Shown in pieces: positions 5,465 to 13,309 of a stretch of DNA of 64,000 bases. Numbering within the stretch: position 1 is the first letter of the stretch; each line of letters starts with the position of its first letter. Made by a program: the position numbers and the translations under genes. The stretch comes from Candidatus Sumerlaeota bacterium (GTDB taxonomy: Bacteria; Sumerlaeota; Sumerlaeia; Sumerlaeales; Sumerlaeaceae): the NCBI GenBank assembly GCA_026398535.1, contig JAPLSQ010000052.1, forward strand, positions 1-64,000. Direction: 5' to 3'. The notes under the pieces were generated by a model. It saw only the letters and a list, made by a program, of their open reading frames with translations. It did no database searches and was not told the DNA's origin.

Positions 5465-5522
5465 TGGCAAAAAGGCAACGCAACAGCAATCCTTCATTGT
5501 GTCTTGAAAGGAGTATCGCAAC

Positions 5523-7190
5523 GTGTATCTGACAAGATGGTTGACGTTTTGTGGGGTCGTGTTGTTGGCTATAGCATTGCCAGCAAAAATCATGAGCGCG
5601 CAAGACACCATACAAACCTCCGGCTCGGGGCGCACGCGGGATGCGGTCGTGGCCGGGCTTTTCTATCCCGCGGGCGCCGCTGAATTGTCGGCGATGATTG
5701 ACCGTTACATGGCGGAAGCCAAACCGCCCGAATTGAAGAACGTCAGGGCAGTGATCTGCCCCCATGCGGGCTTTGTCTATTCCGGCCCAACAGCGGCGTA
5801 TTCGTACAAACTTCTCGCGGGGCGTGACATCGATACCGTGATCGTTCTGGCGCCGAGCCATTATGCCGACTTTAATGGCGCGGCGGTTTCCAACGCAACC
5901 GGATGGCGCACACCGCTTGGCACGATGGCAGTATCGGAAAAAGCCCCGGAACTGGCCGCTCTTCCGCCATTTCAGTTTGAACCCAAATGCCACGTCCAAC
6001 GGCCTGGATGGTGGCGCCAGTCGTCGGCCAAAGCGCCGCCGCCCGCGCAAGACCAGCCGGAGACCTGGGAGCATTCCGCCGAGGTTCAGGCGCCGTTTCT
6101 CCAGAAGGCTTTGCCCAGCGCCACCCTGCTGCCCGTCATCTTCAGCCAGGAAATTGACACGGCCGCCGCCGCTCGCTCGCTCGCCAAAGTGCTCGATGAC
6201 AAGACTGTCATTGTCGCAAGTTCCGATCTCAGCCATTATTATCCCTACGATGAGGCGAAAAAGCTCGACAACAGCTGCGTCAAGACGATCTGCGACCTTG
6301 ATATCGAGCGCATGAGCGGCCAGGAGGCATGCGGCAAAACACCCATACTGACGGTGATGCATCTGGCAAAGCAAAAGGGATGGAAAACCAAACTGCTCGA
6401 TTACCGCAACAGCGGCGACACAGCGGGCGATAAAAGCGGCGTGGTCGGATACGCCGCCATCGCATTTTACGAGGAGAAGCCCGCCGACACACAGACAAAA
6501 TCCGCCCAGGAAACAACAATAACAGACGGCGCATCGAATCAGGCGGCCCCCGGAGGAGGAACCGCTGACGATATACAGTCCACGCCGTCCGAGAGCGGAA
6601 AAGCCGCCGCCGGCCCGGAACAAACATCGGCAACGCTCACAAGCGATGATGGCAAAAAGCTGCTGGAACTTGCCCGCAAAGCGCTCAATGAGGCTGTGAC
6701 AAAGGGAAGTCTTCCGGAAATCGATCCCGTCACGCTTCCCGCGAAATTCAGGGAGCTCAAGGGATGCTTCGTGACACTGACCGAAGGCGGCGAACTGCGG
6801 GGATGCATCGGGCACATTTTCCCCAAGGAGCCTTTGTGGCACGCGGTGCTCGACAATGCCCGCAGCGCGGCTCTTGAGGATCCACGGTTTCCGCCCGTTC
6901 GCGCCGCCGAATTGAACAAAATCGAAATCGAGGTCAGCGTGCTGACGGCGCCGCGGCCGCTGGAATTTTCATCGCCTGATGATCTGCTGAACAAACTGCA
7001 ACCACACAAAGATGGCGTCGTGATGCAGATCGGCTACCGCACATCCACTTTCTTGCCACAGGTATGGGAACAGTTGCCCGATAAAACCGAATTTCTGAAC
7101 CATCTCGCGCAAAAGTCGGGTTCCGCGCCAAGCGCATGGCGTGAACCGGGCGCCAAGATCCAGATTTATCATGCCGAAGCGTTCAAATAG
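5523..7190 (+). CDS. Memo-AMMECR1 fusion protein (AmmeMemoRadiSam B+A domains) with signal peptide
   Basis: Seen: residues 1-27 form a signal peptide or anchor. Residues about 35-318 are a Memo domain with its metal-site-type residues His81 (CPHAG), His113 (PSHY) and Cys270 (ACGK), plus SSDLSHY. A linker rich in Ser, Thr, Gly and Ala covers about 319-375. Residues about 376-555 are an AMMECR1 domain containing the conserved LRGCIGH (425-431) and DPRFPPV. Known: in many prokaryotes Memo, AMMECR1 and a radical SAM protein form the AmmeMemoRadiSam set, thought to act in an oxidative or radical modification. The radical SAM partner is not in this window. The GTG start at 5523 follows an AAGGAG at about 5506-5511. 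Export of both domains is inferred from the N terminus. Confidence 0.88.
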   Translation: MYLTRWLTFCGVVLLAIALPAKIMSAQDTIQTSGSGRTRDAVVAGLFYPAGAAELSAMIDRYMAEAKPPELKNVRAVICPHAGFVYSGPTAAYSYKLLAGRDIDTVIVLAPSHYADFNGAAVSNATGWRTPLGTMAVSEKAPELAALPPFQFEPKCHVQRPGWWRQSSAKAPPPAQDQPETWEHSAEVQAPFLQKALPSATLLPVIFSQEIDTAAAARSLAKVLDDKTVIVASSDLSHYYPYDEAKKLDNSCVKTICDLDIERMSGQEACGKTPILTVMHLAKQKGWKTKLLDYRNSGDTAGDKSGVVGYAAIAFYEEKPADTQTKSAQETTITDGASNQAAPGGGTADDIQSTPSESGKAAAGPEQTSATLTSDDGKKLLELARKALNEAVTKGSLPEIDPVTLPAKFRELKGCFVTLTEGGELRGCIGHIFPKEPLWHAVLDNARSAALEDPRFPPVRAAELNKIEIEVSVLTAPRPLEFSSPDDLLNKLQPHKDGVVMQIGYRTSTFLPQVWEQLPDKTEFLNHLAQKSGSAPSAWREPGAKIQIYHAEAFK

Positions 7191-7534: not shown

Positions 7535-7741
7535 ATGCACCATGGTAAAGTGAAGTGGTTCAGTGACAAAAAAGGCTTCGGATTTATCCTTCCTGATGGC
7601 GGCGGCGATGATGTGTTTGTGCATTATTCATCGATCGTGAGTGAAGGATTCCGTTCCTTGACTGAAGGCCAGTTCGTCCAGTTTGAAACTGAGGAAACGC
7701 AGAAAGGCATTCAGGCGAAAAATGTCATGAGGTTGGACTGA
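7535..7741 (+). CDS. Cold-shock domain protein (CspA family)
   Basis: A single-domain OB-fold nucleic-acid-binding protein of 68 residues, normal for the family. Both RNA-binding motifs are present: RNP1 as KGFGFI (residues 13-18) and RNP2 as DVFVHYSSI (about 26-34), preceded by [11 protein letters not shown]. It ends in [10 protein letters not shown]. Such proteins act as RNA chaperones in the cytoplasm. The ATG at 7535 follows a GGAAAGGGGG at 7514-7523, a slightly long spacing; an in-frame GTG at 7523 overlaps that site and is unlikely. Its 3' end overlaps the converging cysteine desulfurase gene by 17 bases. Confidence 0.95.
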
Positions 7742-8888
7742 TTTCCCGCAGACGCTTGACTTCCTCGATGATTCGCCCGGCAGCATAGTCGATTTCCGGG
7801 TTTGTGTTAAACCGGCCGAGTCCGATGCGCAGGGAACTGTGGGCGCGTTCGGGCGTCAGTCCAAGCGCATGCAGCACATGTGACGGCGATACCGACGCGG
7901 AAGCGCAGGCGCTGCCGGAGCTGACAGCCACATCGCGCAGACGCATGATGAGCGATTCCCCCTCGACGCGCTCGAAAGAGACATTCAGATTATGAGGCAA
8001 ACGCGGCTCGAGCGCGCCATTGACATCAACGCCGTCGATCGATTCCCGCAACAAGGTTAGCAGACGATCTCGCATCACGCGCAGGCGCAGACTCTCTGCG
8101 GGCATTTCATCAAGCATGAGTTCGCAGGCCTTGCCGAACCCCACGATCCCAGGGACATTGAGTGTCCCGGAACGCCATCCGCGCTCCTGGCCCCCTCCAT
8201 GAATCTGTGCCGCAAGACGCACCCGGGGCGGCCTGCGCCGGATGCAGAGCGCCCCAACGCCCTTGGGGCCATATAATTTATGGGCAGTGAACGAAACAAG
8301 ATGAATGCCCGCCATGCGCACGTTAAAAGGCGCTTTGCCGCATGCCTGCGCCGCATCGGTATGGAATGGAATGTCCTTGTAAGCGGCAACCCGGGCAATG
8401 TCCTCAATGGGCTGAATCACACCGATTTCATTATTTGCGGTCATGACACTGATAAGAACAGTGTGATCCGTGATGGCATCGGCGACACGTCCGGGATCGA
8501 GCAGACCACCGCTGTCGACGGGAAGGATCGTCACCAGGGCGCCGCGTTTCTCAAGTGATCGGCACACATCGAGCACGGCGGTGTGTTCTGTGGCGCAGGT
8601 GATGATATGGTTCCCATGTTTTGCCGCAGCCTCATAAACGCCCTTGATGGCAAGATTGTTGCTCTCGGTTGCGCCGGAAGTGAAAATGATTTCGTCAGGC
8701 GCGGCGCCGATCAAGCGCGCAACCTGGGCTCGCGCGGTCTCGACGGCCTCGGCGGCGCGCCAGCCAAATTCATGGACGCGGCTGGAGGGATTGCCAAACA
8801 CCCCGCTGAAACAGGGCAGCATGGCTTCCAGAACGCGCGGGTCAACGGGCGTCGTGGCGTGATTGTCGAGATATACGGGCGTATGCAT
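7725..8888 (-). CDS. Cysteine desulfurase (NifS/IscS family, class V aminotransferase)
   Basis: A PLP enzyme that removes sulfur from cysteine for Fe-S cluster or thio-cofactor synthesis. The 387-residue product begins with [19 protein letters not shown], followed by [26 protein letters not shown] and [14 protein letters not shown]. The PLP lysine lies in [15 protein letters not shown], and the catalytic-loop cysteine in [17 protein letters not shown]. All the key residues of an active NifS-like enzyme are there. It stands alone: no iscU, iscR or tRNA thiolase lies nearby. Its end overlaps the cold-shock gene tail to tail. Whether it is IscS, NifS or another paralogue cannot be decided from sequence alone, so no symbol is given. 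Confidence 0.95.
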
Positions 8889-8961
8889 GCCTGTGCTTCA
8901 CTATGACGATTTCTTTCCGCTTGTATTCAATCAGCGTATTGCACAAAAAATGTTCTCATAG

Positions 8962-9252
8962 ATGCGGAGAAAAACGATGCGATCACTCAAAAAGCTTTTT
9001 GTTCCATCATTGCTGGGTTTGTTTGTCATGACAGCCATGCCGGCCATTGTCACGGCGCGATGCGTTCCAGCCAAACGGCAATATGCCGGGCGCGCGTATT
9101 ATCCCACAGGCTTCCAGTACTATTGCCCCGTGGCCGCCAAACCATCGTGTATTCTGCTCGCATGCGATGATCCTCAGGACAACCAGAGTCAGCGCCCGCA
9201 CAAACGAACAGCCCGAAACCACGAACAGGCCGCGCCGCCGGGGGAGAAGTGA
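8962..9252 (+). CDS. Small exported protein of unknown function
   Basis: Not recognised. The 96-residue product has a classical signal peptide: a basic start (MRRKTMRSLKK), a hydrophobic core (LFVPSLLGLFVMTAM) and a likely cleavage after about residue 32. The mature part holds four Cys (positions about 34, 55, 63, 68), a Tyr-rich patch (GRAYYPTGFQYYCP) and a basic hydrophilic tail. Met6 (8977) is an alternative start. The gene is divergent from the cysteine desulfurase with a 73-base gap, and is followed by a good hairpin at 9268-9297. The Cys content suggests a disulfide-stabilised periplasmic or secreted peptide. Confidence 0.55.
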   Translation: MRRKTMRSLKKLFVPSLLGLFVMTAMPAIVTARCVPAKRQYAGRAYYPTGFQYYCPVAAKPSCILLACDDPQDNQSQRPHKRTARNHEQAAPPGEK

Positions 9253-9267
9253 TACGACGCAGCGCTT

Positions 9268-9303
9268 CAGGGCGGAACTGGCTGACAGTCCGCCCTGCTT
9301 CTT
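9268..9303 (+). terminator. Hairpin with probable terminator role
   Basis: CAGGGCGGA (9268-9276) pairs perfectly with TCCGCCCTG (9289-9297). The stem extends by CTG/CAG after one bulged A, and is followed by CTTCTTCC. It lies 16 bases after the stop of the small exported protein and before the hydrolase gene. The T tract is broken, so termination strength is uncertain. Confidence 0.55.
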
Positions 9304-9461
9304 CCCTCGATCATGGCTGTTACGCTTCGGACGACATACAAAGGCGCCCGGAAGCGCAGGCTTGCGGAATACTCCAATCGCGGCTGATATACGCCACATA
9401 TTCCAGACCGCAATTTCCATTACAAAACAGCAGCAATGAGCCGCGTTCCATTATCAGACAT

Positions 9462-12116
9462 ATGAAAACTCAATTCTTATTGGCTGTATGCGCGCTTACG
9501 CTGGCATTACCGTGCGGCGCCGCCCCGGCCGCTCTCACGGTCGCGGATTTTGAAACAAGTGATCCGGCAACAATCCGACACAATGAGGACGGCAAGGTTA
9601 CCAGTGTGGCGGCCGCAATGACCAAGAACGAACTGGACGGGTCGCGCGCCTTCGAATACACGGCAAACCTCGAGGGGCCGTCGGCGGGATGGGCCGGATG
9701 TTCTCTGCCTGTTGATACGGCAGGCATTCCTGCAGGCGCCGACACAATCGAATTCGACGCCCGAGCAACAGGCTCCGCGCGCTCGCTTTGGATCACGATT
9801 GAAGAGCGCGACTCGTCGCGGTGGAATGCCAGCGTGAAACTGTCGCGCGAATGGAAGCGTTACAGCGTGCCCGCGCACAAATTTGAGTGGTTCACAGGTC
9901 CGCCAGCGCGGGAAAAAACACGCCCGGACTTCTCCAAAATCATCACAGCGGGGCTATGGATCGGCAACAAACCGCAGGGCGCCCATGGTTTCGCCATCGA
10001 CAATGCGAGGCTGGTTGATGCCGTGCCGTCCATGCAACTGCGTTATTATCTGCCTGCTTCCATCCCCGTGCAAAAAGACACGACCATCACAATAGAGGCG
10101 ATTGATCCCGCGACAAGCCAGCCCGTCGCGTGGTCCGGCGAATTGTTCCTTGAGACGGCTGACCGCAACTCAATGAACTTCCCGTTGCGCGCGCCGCTGA
10201 TCAACGGCCTTGCCCAAATACCCGTGTTTCCCCGCCAGCCGGGAGGCAACGAGCTTTACGTTTACGAACCAAACACCCGCCAGGAAATGCGCGTCCCGCT
10301 CCAAGTCTCTTATGATGGGCTGCGCGTAAATTTCTCGTTCGAGGGTTTTGACAACCAGCAGGTCATCTACGCCAACGAGATCATCGCGCCCAAGTTGCGC
10401 CTTGAAGGCACGACAACCATCCCCCTCTCGGCTCACATCGAGTTCATCGATCATCACGGAAAAATGATTGTCGCGAAAAACGAGAGCGTCGCCAATCTTT
10501 CTGGCGGCCTCACGAAATTGCTGCTGCCGCAGCCGGGGCTGTTCACAGCCGACATCAAAATGCTTGCCGAATCCATTACGCAACTGCCTTATCTTCCCGA
10601 TAATGTGCCGGCTTTCATGGCTCCCATGGTTCGCAAGCAAATGCTCGCGACCAGCGGGACAATGGCGCTGCCCGATGGCGTGAGTTCCAGCACGGCGTTC
10701 GGTTTCCTGGTGCACAACGAGCAATTGCCGTCCACGGCGACCGTCGTGGGACATGACCAGTTCCCTCTGTTTGTCACCGTCGATCTTCCGCGCGAGGCCA
10801 CCCTGTACAAGTCGCCATTCGGGCTGAGCAGCGGACAGTTATTCCATCTTCCCATGAACCAGATCGGCAGCGTCGGCAACCGCCGCATTCGCTGGCACAG
10901 GCGTCTGGGCTCGCGATGGGGACGCAACGACTTGTGGTGGAATGAAACCGAGACATCGCCGACCGTGTTCCAGTGGGCAAAGGCAGACTCGGTTGTCGAT
11001 CAGTACAAGAATCAGAACCTGCGTCTGTTGGGCATACTTTGCTATGCCTCGGCATGGTCGAACGGCATTGCCCCCGCTGATGACGCCGCCCGCAGCCAGT
11101 GGCGGGGATGGGTGTCGCAAATGTTCAAACATTTCGGCAACCGCGTCATCGCCTACGAGGTGTGGAATGAGCCCAACGGCGCATTCTGGAAACCTTTGCC
11201 AAATCCCGATCATTACCGCGAACTGTTGCAGGCAACGCACGAGGAGCTGAAAAAGATCAGCACGACGCCGCGCATTGTGGCGGGCGCAACTGCGGGTTTC
11301 GATCCGGTGTTTTTTGACCAAACGCTCAGCGATGGATTCAACAAGTACGCTGATATCATCAGCATGCATCCTTATCCGGAACGGCCCGCGGAGTCGCCCG
11401 AGGACAATTATCTGACCGAGGACATCGAGGGCTTTCGCGCCGTCATGAACCGGTACAAGTACGATGAGGGCTGGATTACCGAGATCGGCTGGCCCACCAC
11501 GCCATCCGGCGTCGATGAAATAACACAGGCCAACTATCTTGTGCGCGCTTACACCATGGCGCTCTCACGGCGGATGTCGAAAGTGTTCTGGTTCGATCTA
11601 CTTGATTGGGAGCGATATTCATGGCGCCAGGCCAACGATGCCCACCTCGGAATCATGGACGTGAATTACCGGCCCAAGCCGTCGAGCATCGCTTACAACA
11701 TTGCGCTGTTCATGCTCACAGAAACCAAATCGGCGGAGAAAACACAGCAAGGCCAGGCCGTCATCCACACATTTGACATCCAGCGCCACAGCGTCAAGTG
11801 GGAGGGGCGGTTGCATCTGGCATGGACACCACGCGAAGGCGACGTTGAACACATCAAACTGCCGTTGGCGGCACGCGGCGGCGTGTTCGCCTTGGATTAC
11901 CTCGGCGCCGAACAGATGCCCGAGGTGATCGAAGAGATCACCACCAGCGGAACAACCACGCTCGCGGGCGCGGTCAGGCCCGACGCAATTACAAACATGG
12001 CCATGATACCCACCATGTATAACGACATGCCAACCACGAAAATCTGTCAGTTCCGGGTGACGCACGAGCCGCTGTATATCTGGGATGTCGGCACCCCGCC
12101 CTCGCGCCGCAAATGA
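9462..12116 (+). CDS. Exported clan GH-A glycoside hydrolase with N-terminal carbohydrate-binding-like domain
   Basis: The 884-residue product has a signal peptide (MKTQFLLAVCALTLALPCGAAPA). A beta-rich domain of about 170 residues resembles galactose-binding-like or CBM folds (VADFETSD, LWITIEERDSSRWN, FAIDNARL). A middle beta region follows, then a (beta/alpha)8 catalytic domain from about residue 440. The acid/base Glu570 is in YEVWNEPNGAFW and the nucleophile Glu674 in WITEIGWPTTPSG, the arrangement of clan GH-A (GH39/GH5/PslG-like enzymes). The exact family and substrate cannot be fixed by eye. The frame is open further upstream, but ATG 9462 begins the signal peptide. The stop overlaps the methyltransferase start (ATGA). 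Confidence 0.82.
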   Translation: MKTQFLLAVCALTLALPCGAAPAALTVADFETSDPATIRHNEDGKVTSVAAAMTKNELDGSRAFEYTANLEGPSAGWAGCSLPVDTAGIPAGADTIEFDARATGSARSLWITIEERDSSRWNASVKLSREWKRYSVPAHKFEWFTGPPAREKTRPDFSKIITAGLWIGNKPQGAHGFAIDNARLVDAVPSMQLRYYLPASIPVQKDTTITIEAIDPATSQPVAWSGELFLETADRNSMNFPLRAPLINGLAQIPVFPRQPGGNELYVYEPNTRQEMRVPLQVSYDGLRVNFSFEGFDNQQVIYANEIIAPKLRLEGTTTIPLSAHIEFIDHHGKMIVAKNESVANLSGGLTKLLLPQPGLFTADIKMLAESITQLPYLPDNVPAFMAPMVRKQMLATSGTMALPDGVSSSTAFGFLVHNEQLPSTATVVGHDQFPLFVTVDLPREATLYKSPFGLSSGQLFHLPMNQIGSVGNRRIRWHRRLGSRWGRNDLWWNETETSPTVFQWAKADSVVDQYKNQNLRLLGILCYASAWSNGIAPADDAARSQWRGWVSQMFKHFGNRVIAYEVWNEPNGAFWKPLPNPDHYRELLQATHEELKKISTTPRIVAGATAGFDPVFFDQTLSDGFNKYADIISMHPYPERPAESPEDNYLTEDIEGFRAVMNRYKYDEGWITEIGWPTTPSGVDEITQANYLVRAYTMALSRRMSKVFWFDLLDWERYSWRQANDAHLGIMDVNYRPKPSSIAYNIALFMLTETKSAEKTQQGQAVIHTFDIQRHSVKWEGRLHLAWTPREGDVEHIKLPLAARGGVFALDYLGAEQMPEVIEEITTSGTTTLAGAVRPDAITNMAMIPTMYNDMPTTKICQFRVTHEPLYIWDVGTPPSRRK

Positions 12117-13309
12117 GCCGCATCGCCTTAAGGGACGAGCCGCGGCTCATCATCACGGGAGCGCACGTCAAGACGCCGCGCATCCGCCCGGTCTGGATAT
12201 TCGACAACATGGTGGCGGAAACGCGCGGGGCGGTCGCAAGCGGTCAGACCGTGTACGTCTACGACCGGCGCAACAAATTCCTCGGCAGCGCCATCTACAA
12301 CGAGAGGTCAAAAATCCGCGCGCGGATTTTCTCACTCGACAGGGAGCTGTTCGACAACAGGTATATCGCCCGCGCCATGGAATCCGCCGTTGAGCGGCGC
12401 CGCGCTTTCTACACGCCTGACGATTCCTTTCGCGCCGTGTACAGCGATTCCGATTTCCTGCCCGGAGTCGTGGTCGACAAGCTTGGCGACGTCGTGGTGG
12501 TTGAATTACTGACACTTGCCGCCCACCTGCGCCGGACTTCTGTTCTCGCGGCCGTCGAAAAGCTGTTAAGGCCGCCCGGCATCGTCTTGCGTGTGGATGA
12601 TGCCGCCCGCGAAAAAGAAGGGCTGGATGGAAATGAGCCGCTGACAACAGGCGTTATTCCCCCCGTGCTCCGTGTGCGCACAGACGGTTTTGTGCTGTTC
12701 GCGGATCCCATTCATGGGCAGAAATCAGGATTGTTTCTCGATCAGCGATTCAACCGCAGGCTGATCGCGCCATGGTGCGGCCAGGGCCGCGTGCTCGATC
12801 TCTTCTGCCACACGGGAGGGTGGGCGTTCACGGCGGCGCTTGCGGGCGCGGCGGATGTCACGGCTGTTGATTCTTCGGGCGAAGCGCTCGAGCTGGGGCG
12901 CGCCGCCGCCGCGAAAAATGGTTTCGCGCAAGTGCGGTTCGAGCAGAGCGACGTTTTTGACTTTCTTGCCGCCGTGGGCAGCCGGGGCGCGCAATATGAT
13001 GTCATCGTGAGCGATCCCCCGGCCTTTGCCAAGTCGCGCAAGCATGTTCCCGAAGCCGTCCGCGCTTATCTGAGCCTGAATTACAGGGCAATGAAACTGC
13101 TGAAATCAGGCGGCGTGCTCGCGGCATGCTCCTGCTCGCACCATGTCACACGCGAGGAATTTGACCGCGTTCTCGGAACAGCGGCGCGCAATGCGCGCAT
13201 GAACTTTCACATCATCGCCCGCGGCGCCCAGGCGCCTGATCACCCGATCCTGCTTGGTCTGCCCGAATCAGACTACCTTAAATGTGTTCTATTAAGAAGG
13301 GTTTCATGA
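12113..13309 (+). CDS. rlmI: Class I rRNA large-subunit methyltransferase of the RlmI (YccW) type
   Basis: The 398-residue product has the RlmI layout: an N-terminal PUA-like RNA-binding domain (about 1-80, with HVWIFDNMV-like RPVWIFDNM), a linker with LPGVVVDKLGDVVVVELLT, then a Rossmann methyltransferase. SAM-binding VLDLFCHTGGWAFTAALAGA is at about 223-242, the acidic VTAVDSS follows, and the catalytic-loop motif SDPPAFAKSRKHV lies near 303. RlmI methylates C5 of a 23S rRNA cytidine (C1962 in E. coli). The ATG overlaps the preceding hydrolase stop by four bases, so the two are translationally coupled although functionally unrelated. Confidence 0.88.
   Translation: MSRIALRDEPRLIITGAHVKTPRIRPVWIFDNMVAETRGAVASGQTVYVYDRRNKFLGSAIYNERSKIRARIFSLDRELFDNRYIARAMESAVERRRAFYTPDDSFRAVYSDSDFLPGVVVDKLGDVVVVELLTLAAHLRRTSVLAAVEKLLRPPGIVLRVDDAAREKEGLDGNEPLTTGVIPPVLRVRTDGFVLFADPIHGQKSGLFLDQRFNRRLIAPWCGQGRVLDLFCHTGGWAFTAALAGAADVTAVDSSGEALELGRAAAAKNGFAQVRFEQSDVFDFLAAVGSRGAQYDVIVSDPPAFAKSRKHVPEAVRAYLSLNYRAMKLLKSGGVLAACSCSHHVTREEFDRVLGTAARNARMNFHIIARGAQAPDHPILLGLPESDYLKCVLLRRVS

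Follow-up and report, generated by a model that had tools for sequence, protein, structure and literature searches.

The window analysed here, a stretch of 64,000 nucleotides of DNA from a Candidatus Sumerlaeota bacterium, encodes a Memo–AMMECR1 fusion that is apparently an exported protein, and we consider it probable that this fusion provides proteins A and B of an AmmeMemoRadiSam system that is complete and works at the exterior face of the cytoplasmic membrane, with a radical SAM enzyme encoded on another contig (C119) as its partner. The domains, the signal-like N termini, the gene neighbourhood, the association across genomes and the positive-inside topology of a membrane protein can all be read from the sequences, and from these we infer the actual export, the partnership, the supply of SAM, the electron route and the chemistry. 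SAM is usually regarded as a cofactor of the cytoplasm, and if our reading is true, chemistry that normally takes place within the cell may, as a set, have been relocated to the outside.

The Memo–AMMECR1 fusion and its N terminus

The fusion gene (5523–7190; this and the following features are on the plus strand) has a GTG start and encodes 555 residues, and a Shine-Dalgarno-like AAAGGAG was recognised by eye 9 nt upstream of the start (5507–5513). Pfam matches delimit a Memo domain at residues 41–313 (5643–6461), for which Foldseek found the MEMO1 structures 7l5c, 3bcz and 7kq8, and an AMMECR1 domain at residues 381–554 (6663–7184), for which phmmer and Foldseek found 1zq7, 1vaj and 1wsc. 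Both curated protein models of the system recognise the fusion, AmmeMemoSam_B of NCBIfam with 229.2 bits (cut-off 26) and AmmeMemoSam_A with 200.5 bits (cut-off 99). A preliminary description of this DNA had already proposed such a fusion with an export-like N terminus, which these matches bear out for the domains and a hydropathy of 2.68 makes plausible for the N terminus, and it had joined the two domains by a linker of roughly 55 residues; the linker exists, but the span between the Pfam domains is a little longer with 67 residues (314–380; 6462–6662). In the AlphaFold2 model of the fusion (mean pLDDT 87), an N-terminal helix at residues 2–27 is followed by two folded domains, and residues 322–368 between them are disordered.

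The metal ligands of MEMO1 are H49, H81 and C244 (PMC11081632), and we take His81 (5763–5765), His113 (5859–5861) and Cys270 (6330–6332) of the fusion as their counterparts, an assignment based on motifs and not on a residue-level structural alignment. In an alignment of 22 fusions, the two histidines are invariant, and the cysteine is kept in at least 90% of the sequences and absent in L090. The LRGCIGH motif of the AMMECR1 domain can be read in the translation at residues 425–431 (6795–6815), and its L425, R426, G427, C428 and G430 are invariant in the same alignment. The metal-site residues and the motif are thus present in the translation just as they had been described. On the opposite strand, 3' of the fusion, a NifS-like cysteine desulfurase gene was noted by eye (7725–8888, minus strand).

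Throughout, a home-made rule and visual inspection decided which N termini were called export signals. The signal-peptide-like segment of the fusion comprises residues 1–26 (5523–5600), with a possible cleavage after A26 by eye; its sequence MYLTRWLTFCGVVLLAIALPAKIMSAQD has a best 12-residue hydropathy of 2.68, and the c-region was judged by eye only. We regard it as very unlikely that this hydrophobic N terminus is something other than an export signal, be it that translation starts at Met24 or that the segment is a plain anchor of a protein that stays inside. An ATG does lie in frame at codon 24, whereas the upstream start is a GTG, and a start at this ATG would drop the hydrophobic segment. 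However, the good ribosome-binding site lies before the GTG, and inspection by eye revealed no Shine-Dalgarno-like stretch before the ATG. Furthermore, the clade relatives of the fusion have, at this very position, segments that are signal-like or contain a lipobox, despite dissimilar sequences, which likewise argues against a non-signal reading; lipoboxes were seen by eye in several taxa, for example ILIGCG, VLLGCQ and VTTGCS.

The radical SAM enzymes of the genome

The genome of the window (G000; 4.22 Mb in 145 contigs, 92.7% complete; the fusion is on contig C73) was searched as a whole and contains three Memo domains, one AMMECR1 domain and two radical SAM enzymes of the family TIGR04337. 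As this search placed the radical SAM genes of the family only on C34 and C119, none lies in the window, as had been stated before. The C34 enzyme has 352 residues, 276.7 bits (cut-off 220) and no signal-like start. The C119 enzyme has 450 residues and 336.7 bits against the same cut-off. It starts with MVDPTDKTRASPSADVFAGTLTRRSALKYAIAGLAGLACTGSCG, which is a signal of the twin-arginine type (TLTRRSALKYAIAGLAGLACTG), in which a TRRSALK motif is followed by a moderately hydrophobic stretch (hydropathy 1.66). The enzyme keeps the CX3CX2C cluster motif as CVLRCLNC and matches Radical_SAM (PF04055) with 52.7 bits (cut-off 29.5). The genome has a TatC on C78 (176.2 bits, cut-off 132.7), by which alone the presence of a Tat translocase was judged, and the C119 enzyme is, going by its N terminus, a candidate Tat substrate that would be exported.

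The genes of AmmeMemoRadiSam sets are usually close together, but this does not define the system, as the NCBIfam models describe each protein separately. In G000 they are apart, the fusion on C73 and the radical SAM enzymes on C34 and C119. The link between the fusion and the C119 enzyme comes from two genomes of the same family with orthologous fusions. In G029 (L147), the fusion (7871–9517), a membrane protein (9480–11741) and a Tat-signal radical SAM enzyme (11801–13114) follow each other on one strand, and the same order on one strand is found in G035 (L148). The C119 enzyme is 63% identical over 420 residues to the Tat-signal enzyme of G029, and on C119 a membrane protein, the Tat-signal enzyme and a polyferredoxin are likewise encoded together. 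The trees agree: with support 90 the window fusion groups with its counterparts in G029 and G035, within a clade of 11 rows (support 99), whose remaining ten rows belong to loci that also encode the membrane protein and a Tat-signal radical SAM enzyme, and the C119 enzyme falls inside a clade of 20 rows (support 99) of signal-bearing enzymes. This linkage, identity and phylogeny point to the C119 enzyme as the likely partner of the fusion.

The preliminary description had concluded that export would separate the pair from a cytoplasmic radical SAM enzyme, had asked for a genome search for the enzyme and its signals, and had named an enzyme exported together with the pair as the finding that would speak against it. 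The search has now been run, and at the level of sequence signals such an enzyme is present: the C119 enzyme has the Tat-type signal, and its ortholog is encoded in a cluster with the fusion in G029 and G035. For G000, we therefore reject the paradox. The reading behind it, in which the fusion is exported and its functional partner is the cytosolic C34 enzyme, appears quite unlikely to us. C34 does encode a signal-less family member (276.7 bits), and the family of Xylanibacter rarus shows exactly such a combination in adjacent genes. Nevertheless, in G029 and G035 the orthologous fusion adjoins the Tat-signal enzyme, whereas the C34-type enzyme sits away from the fusion and belongs to a separate signal-less clade, and this linkage and the trees disfavour the C34 enzyme as partner.

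Some further arrangements of these domains deserve mention. In L123 (9887–13345) and L125 (9881–13216), both from Planctomycetota, radical SAM, AMMECR1 and Memo form one polypeptide of more than 1100 residues, and therefore the three proteins can share one compartment. In L044, L045 and L047, an AMMECR1 domain ends a frame of 460–489 residues, whose N-terminal half is LigB-like by eye, and this frame adjoins a signal-less radical SAM enzyme. In the window genome, contig C92 (L010, 6446–7771, minus strand) encodes a 441-residue protein with a Memo domain at 163–424, no AMMECR1 match and no visible signal, and L009 (8510–9349 and 9368–10588, both minus strand) contains a signal-less Memo next to a gene that is NuoH-like by eye; the same Memo/NuoH-like pair is present in G029 (L147, 14467–16627, NuoH by family scan) and G035 (L148, 5764–7961, NuoH by clustering).

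Association of the export signals across genomes

The preliminary description had assumed that most AmmeMemoRadiSam sets encode three separate cytoplasmic proteins; in this phylum, 40 genomes were searched, and 13 of them encode a Memo–AMMECR1 fusion. Beyond the phylum, the set of fusion, membrane protein and signal-bearing radical SAM enzyme recurs in Planctomycetota, Verrucomicrobia, Bacteroidota, an ignavibacterium and a deltaproteobacterium, as well as in a Woesearchaeon, which is a DPANN archaeon. In the 40 phylum genomes, a signal-bearing fusion and a signal-bearing radical SAM enzyme occur together in 10, the fusion only in 2, the radical SAM enzyme only in 2, and neither in 26; the corresponding numbers for the signal-bearing fusion and the membrane protein are 10, 2, 3 and 25. 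Among 41 loci that contain both genes, signals are present on both proteins in 23, on neither in 11, on the fusion only in 7 and on the radical SAM enzyme only in none. Finally, the membrane protein is encoded beside 27 of 42 signal-bearing and beside 1 of 25 signal-less radical SAM enzymes, a count over 67 of 74 named loci that had been collected with the C119 enzyme including its Tat signal as query and are thus biased to signal-bearing enzymes. Many of the named loci stop at contig ends, and hence the absence of a neighbour is often not informative. Clustering of the neighbours in 49 loci gave, beyond the radical SAM enzyme, the membrane protein and Memo/AMMECR1, no family that occurs in more than 8 loci; the other families scanned were housekeeping genes, diguanylate cyclase, DUF362, DUF6666 and similar ones.

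Fisher tests gave 1.0e-5 for the 41 loci, 4.5e-6 and 1.8e-5 for the two counts in the 40 phylum genomes, and 4.9e-7 for the 67 loci, values that are overstated as they take related genomes as independent. Radical SAM export changed twice on the 41-row tree and five times on the 117-row tree, and in the independent-branch test a single pair on starred branches (two on all branches) differed in radical SAM export. As these are too few independent pairs, we describe the co-export association without a claim of significance on independent branches: it is strong but clustered by descent, and not independent.

The calls behind these numbers are defined as follows. The 41-locus count, for which fusion labels were assigned by hand, was made without L095 (fusion open at the 5' end), L140 (radical SAM open at the 3' end), L145 (low score) and L195 (radical SAM cut off), and it includes the loci L074, L126 and L128, in which Memo and AMMECR1 are separate, as pairs. 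The 67-locus count leaves out L098 and L119 (5' open) and the weak relatives L142–L146. Signal labels were changed by eye to cytosolic for L065 and to exported for L106 and L109, and the labels of L106, L109 and L140 were set by eye also in the 67-locus count. L113 and L171 are labelled Tat yet resemble Sec anchors, the label of L102 was triggered by an upstream RR although KR is the likelier motif, and L077, L089, L096, L100, L116 and L149 are labelled KR from an upstream KR that is followed by RR (RK in L096). A KR variant of the Tat motif is seen in the signal-bearing enzymes of Bacteroidota. The radical SAM N termini of the phylum include all matches above the cut-off; G018:C27, G019:C2, G020, G021, G024, G025:C84 and G026 are below it and were left out. 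The strict Tat rule was passed by 35 of 119 radical SAM enzymes versus 6 of the 330 other ORFs that served as background; the relaxed rule is weak alone, since 53 of these 330 ORFs pass it versus 51 of the 119 radical SAM enzymes. The first 90 residues were considered for the background, and for the radical SAM enzymes as many as 110 residues ahead of the first Cys motif.

A strict rule that both proteins are outside fails in places, because the family of Xylanibacter rarus, L104 and G037 are exceptions. The seven loci with a signal-bearing fusion and a signal-less radical SAM enzyme are L104, L120, L138, L190, L191, L194 and G037. The genome of L138 (G042) encodes a second radical SAM enzyme with a Sec-type segment (L175) and has no TatC match, and this discordance may resolve through L175. 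In the genomes of L104 (G040) and G037, both radical SAM enzymes above the cut-off were inspected in each case, and no clear signal was seen on them. Of 61 genomes from the family of Xylanibacter rarus (Prevotellaceae in NCBI), 9 encode the fusion, and TatC is present in all 9; no signal was seen on any of the 9 radical SAM enzymes that adjoin the fusions. Close relatives in this family differ in the hydrophobic N terminus of the fusion, which is found in 5 of the 9 (L120/L189, L190, L191, L194, L195) and not in L192, L193, L196 and L197. The export puzzle of the preliminary description may therefore be real in these organisms. A TatC match was missing in 4 of 22 genomes searched (G042, G048, G030 and G049), drafts in which the gene may have been missed; G042 and G048 have radical SAM enzymes with a Sec-type or anchor segment instead, and an RR motif is present in G030 and G049 despite the missing match.

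Membrane protein, proposed working and known systems

The protein encoded upstream of the C119 enzyme scores as a fused MFS/spermidine synthase (NF037959, 72.1 bits, cut-off 40). In the model of its homolog from L087 (mean pLDDT 86), seven helices are followed by a domain that folds like spermidine synthase (about 245–510) and by another seven helices. The loops between the helices carry on average 12.3 Lys and Arg residues per protein on one side, assigned as inner, versus 1.35 on the other, and all 20 sequences examined show this bias in the same sense; for this count, helix ends were set by hand, and the N-terminal tail and the two 20-residue stretches that adjoin the spermidine-synthase-like domain were left out, although these stretches contain Lys and Arg as well, 2.50 and 1.75 residues on average. 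By the positive-inside rule both ends are thus inside, and therefore the spermidine-synthase-like domain is predicted to face the outside. None of the 20 homologs has the Asp of the GGGDGG motif, and only 10 of them keep the first Asp of the DSSDP motif, which makes ordinary aminopropyl transfer doubtful. The equivalog cut-offs for spermidine synthase were not reached by the C119 membrane protein. The domain may thus bind a ligand of the SAM type and yet not act as a usual aminopropyltransferase, which suggests, as a working hypothesis, that the membrane protein handles SAM for an enzyme outside.

The protein encoded downstream of the C119 enzyme (L008, 12111–13838) combines a membrane half that is NapH-like with a second half that is NapG-like, which score 98 and 97.8 bits, below the NCBIfam cut-offs of 213.05 and 269. 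This polyferredoxin is likely the electron source of the C119 enzyme, as far as the gene order can suggest it; with a threshold of 40 bits, a polyferredoxin was found near the radical SAM gene in 3 of the 67 named loci (L087, L096, L104). In L100 (1974–4982), an MFS/spermidine-synthase-like protein of 1002 residues runs into a ferredoxin-like C-terminal part just before a Tat-signal radical SAM enzyme, and this chain looks as if the membrane protein and an electron carrier were fused.

In the working that we propose, the signals seen on the two proteins would lead to export of the fusion by Sec and of the radical SAM enzyme by Tat, the 14-helix membrane protein would supply or hold SAM or a derivative at the outer face, and electrons would arrive via the NapH/NapG-like polyferredoxin encoded just downstream of the C119 enzyme. 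In the same compartment, a 5'-deoxyadenosyl radical could then act on the Memo–AMMECR1 protein itself or on a substrate at its Fe-type His/His/Cys site, a step that we propose because the C119 enzyme is related to activases. Extended beyond this genome, the same reading would mean that an entire AmmeMemoRadiSam unit is exported in many bacteria and also in some DPANN archaea, with the MFS/spermidine-synthase-like protein as SAM transporter or outer-face holder and the polyferredoxin as electron donor, a generalisation that we put forward only tentatively and consider rather doubtful as a whole.

It is also conceivable, and in our view unlikely, that the cytoplasm is where the radical SAM enzyme acts, or that Tat exports it, after folding and loading with its clusters and SAM in the cytoplasm, as a spent or single-turnover enzyme, and that the set outside has another role. 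Tat carries folded, cofactor-bearing proteins, and a narrow keyword search of the literature yielded neither a SAM-handling membrane protein nor an exported SAM enzyme. However, with a Sec-type segment on the fusion, or a lipobox on its relatives, the protein would normally cross the membrane unfolded and not in a complex with a Tat substrate, and the set is often accompanied by the membrane protein, whose SAM-family domain apparently points outwards. Free SAM outside the cytoplasm was not found as an established fact in the literature searched, nor does the phrase "periplasmic radical SAM" occur there; no paper treating AMMECR1, MEMO1 and radical SAM together was found in it, and no description of an exported AmmeMemoRadiSam variant with a membrane partner, in a literature that covered few subscription papers. 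Export signals on both partners, radical SAM and Memo–AMMECR1, in a set that is widespread would tie them to one compartment and narrow the function of AmmeMemoRadiSam in these organisms to something at or outside the membrane, and the membrane protein is a concrete, testable candidate for the SAM supply.

Compared with the known AmmeMemoRadiSam system (TIGR04335, TIGR04336, TIGR04337), all three proteins are above the curated cut-offs in G000; however, A and B are fused and signal-bearing here, a Tat-type signal precedes one of the radical SAM enzymes, the genes are spread over separate contigs, and the membrane protein is a frequent partner in the relatives. Human MEMO1 (3bcz, 7kq8, 7l5c) shares the Memo fold (Foldseek E about 1e-20) and the His/His/Cys set with the fusion at about 24% identity, whereas the fusion has in addition a secretory-type N terminus and AMMECR1. 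The archaeal AMMECR1 proteins 1zq7, 1vaj and 1wsc consist of the same domain (phmmer E 3e-37 to 1e-17), but they are stand-alone chains of 207 to 230 residues. The best match of the C119 enzyme among solved structures is the pyruvate formate-lyase activating enzyme 3c8f (E 2e-5), with which it has the CX3CX2C motif in common and from which it differs by the Tat-type signal and by further CxxC motifs at both ends. The soluble spermidine synthases 1uir and 3o4f have the fold of the domain in the L087 homolog, but the membrane protein lacks their GGGDGG Asp, keeps the DSSDP Asp in half of the 20 sequences and is predicted to expose the domain to the outside. The NapH/NapG quinol dehydrogenase ferredoxins, finally, correspond to the two kinds of half that are joined in the protein downstream of the C119 enzyme, which, unlike them, is one polypeptide and scores below their cut-offs.
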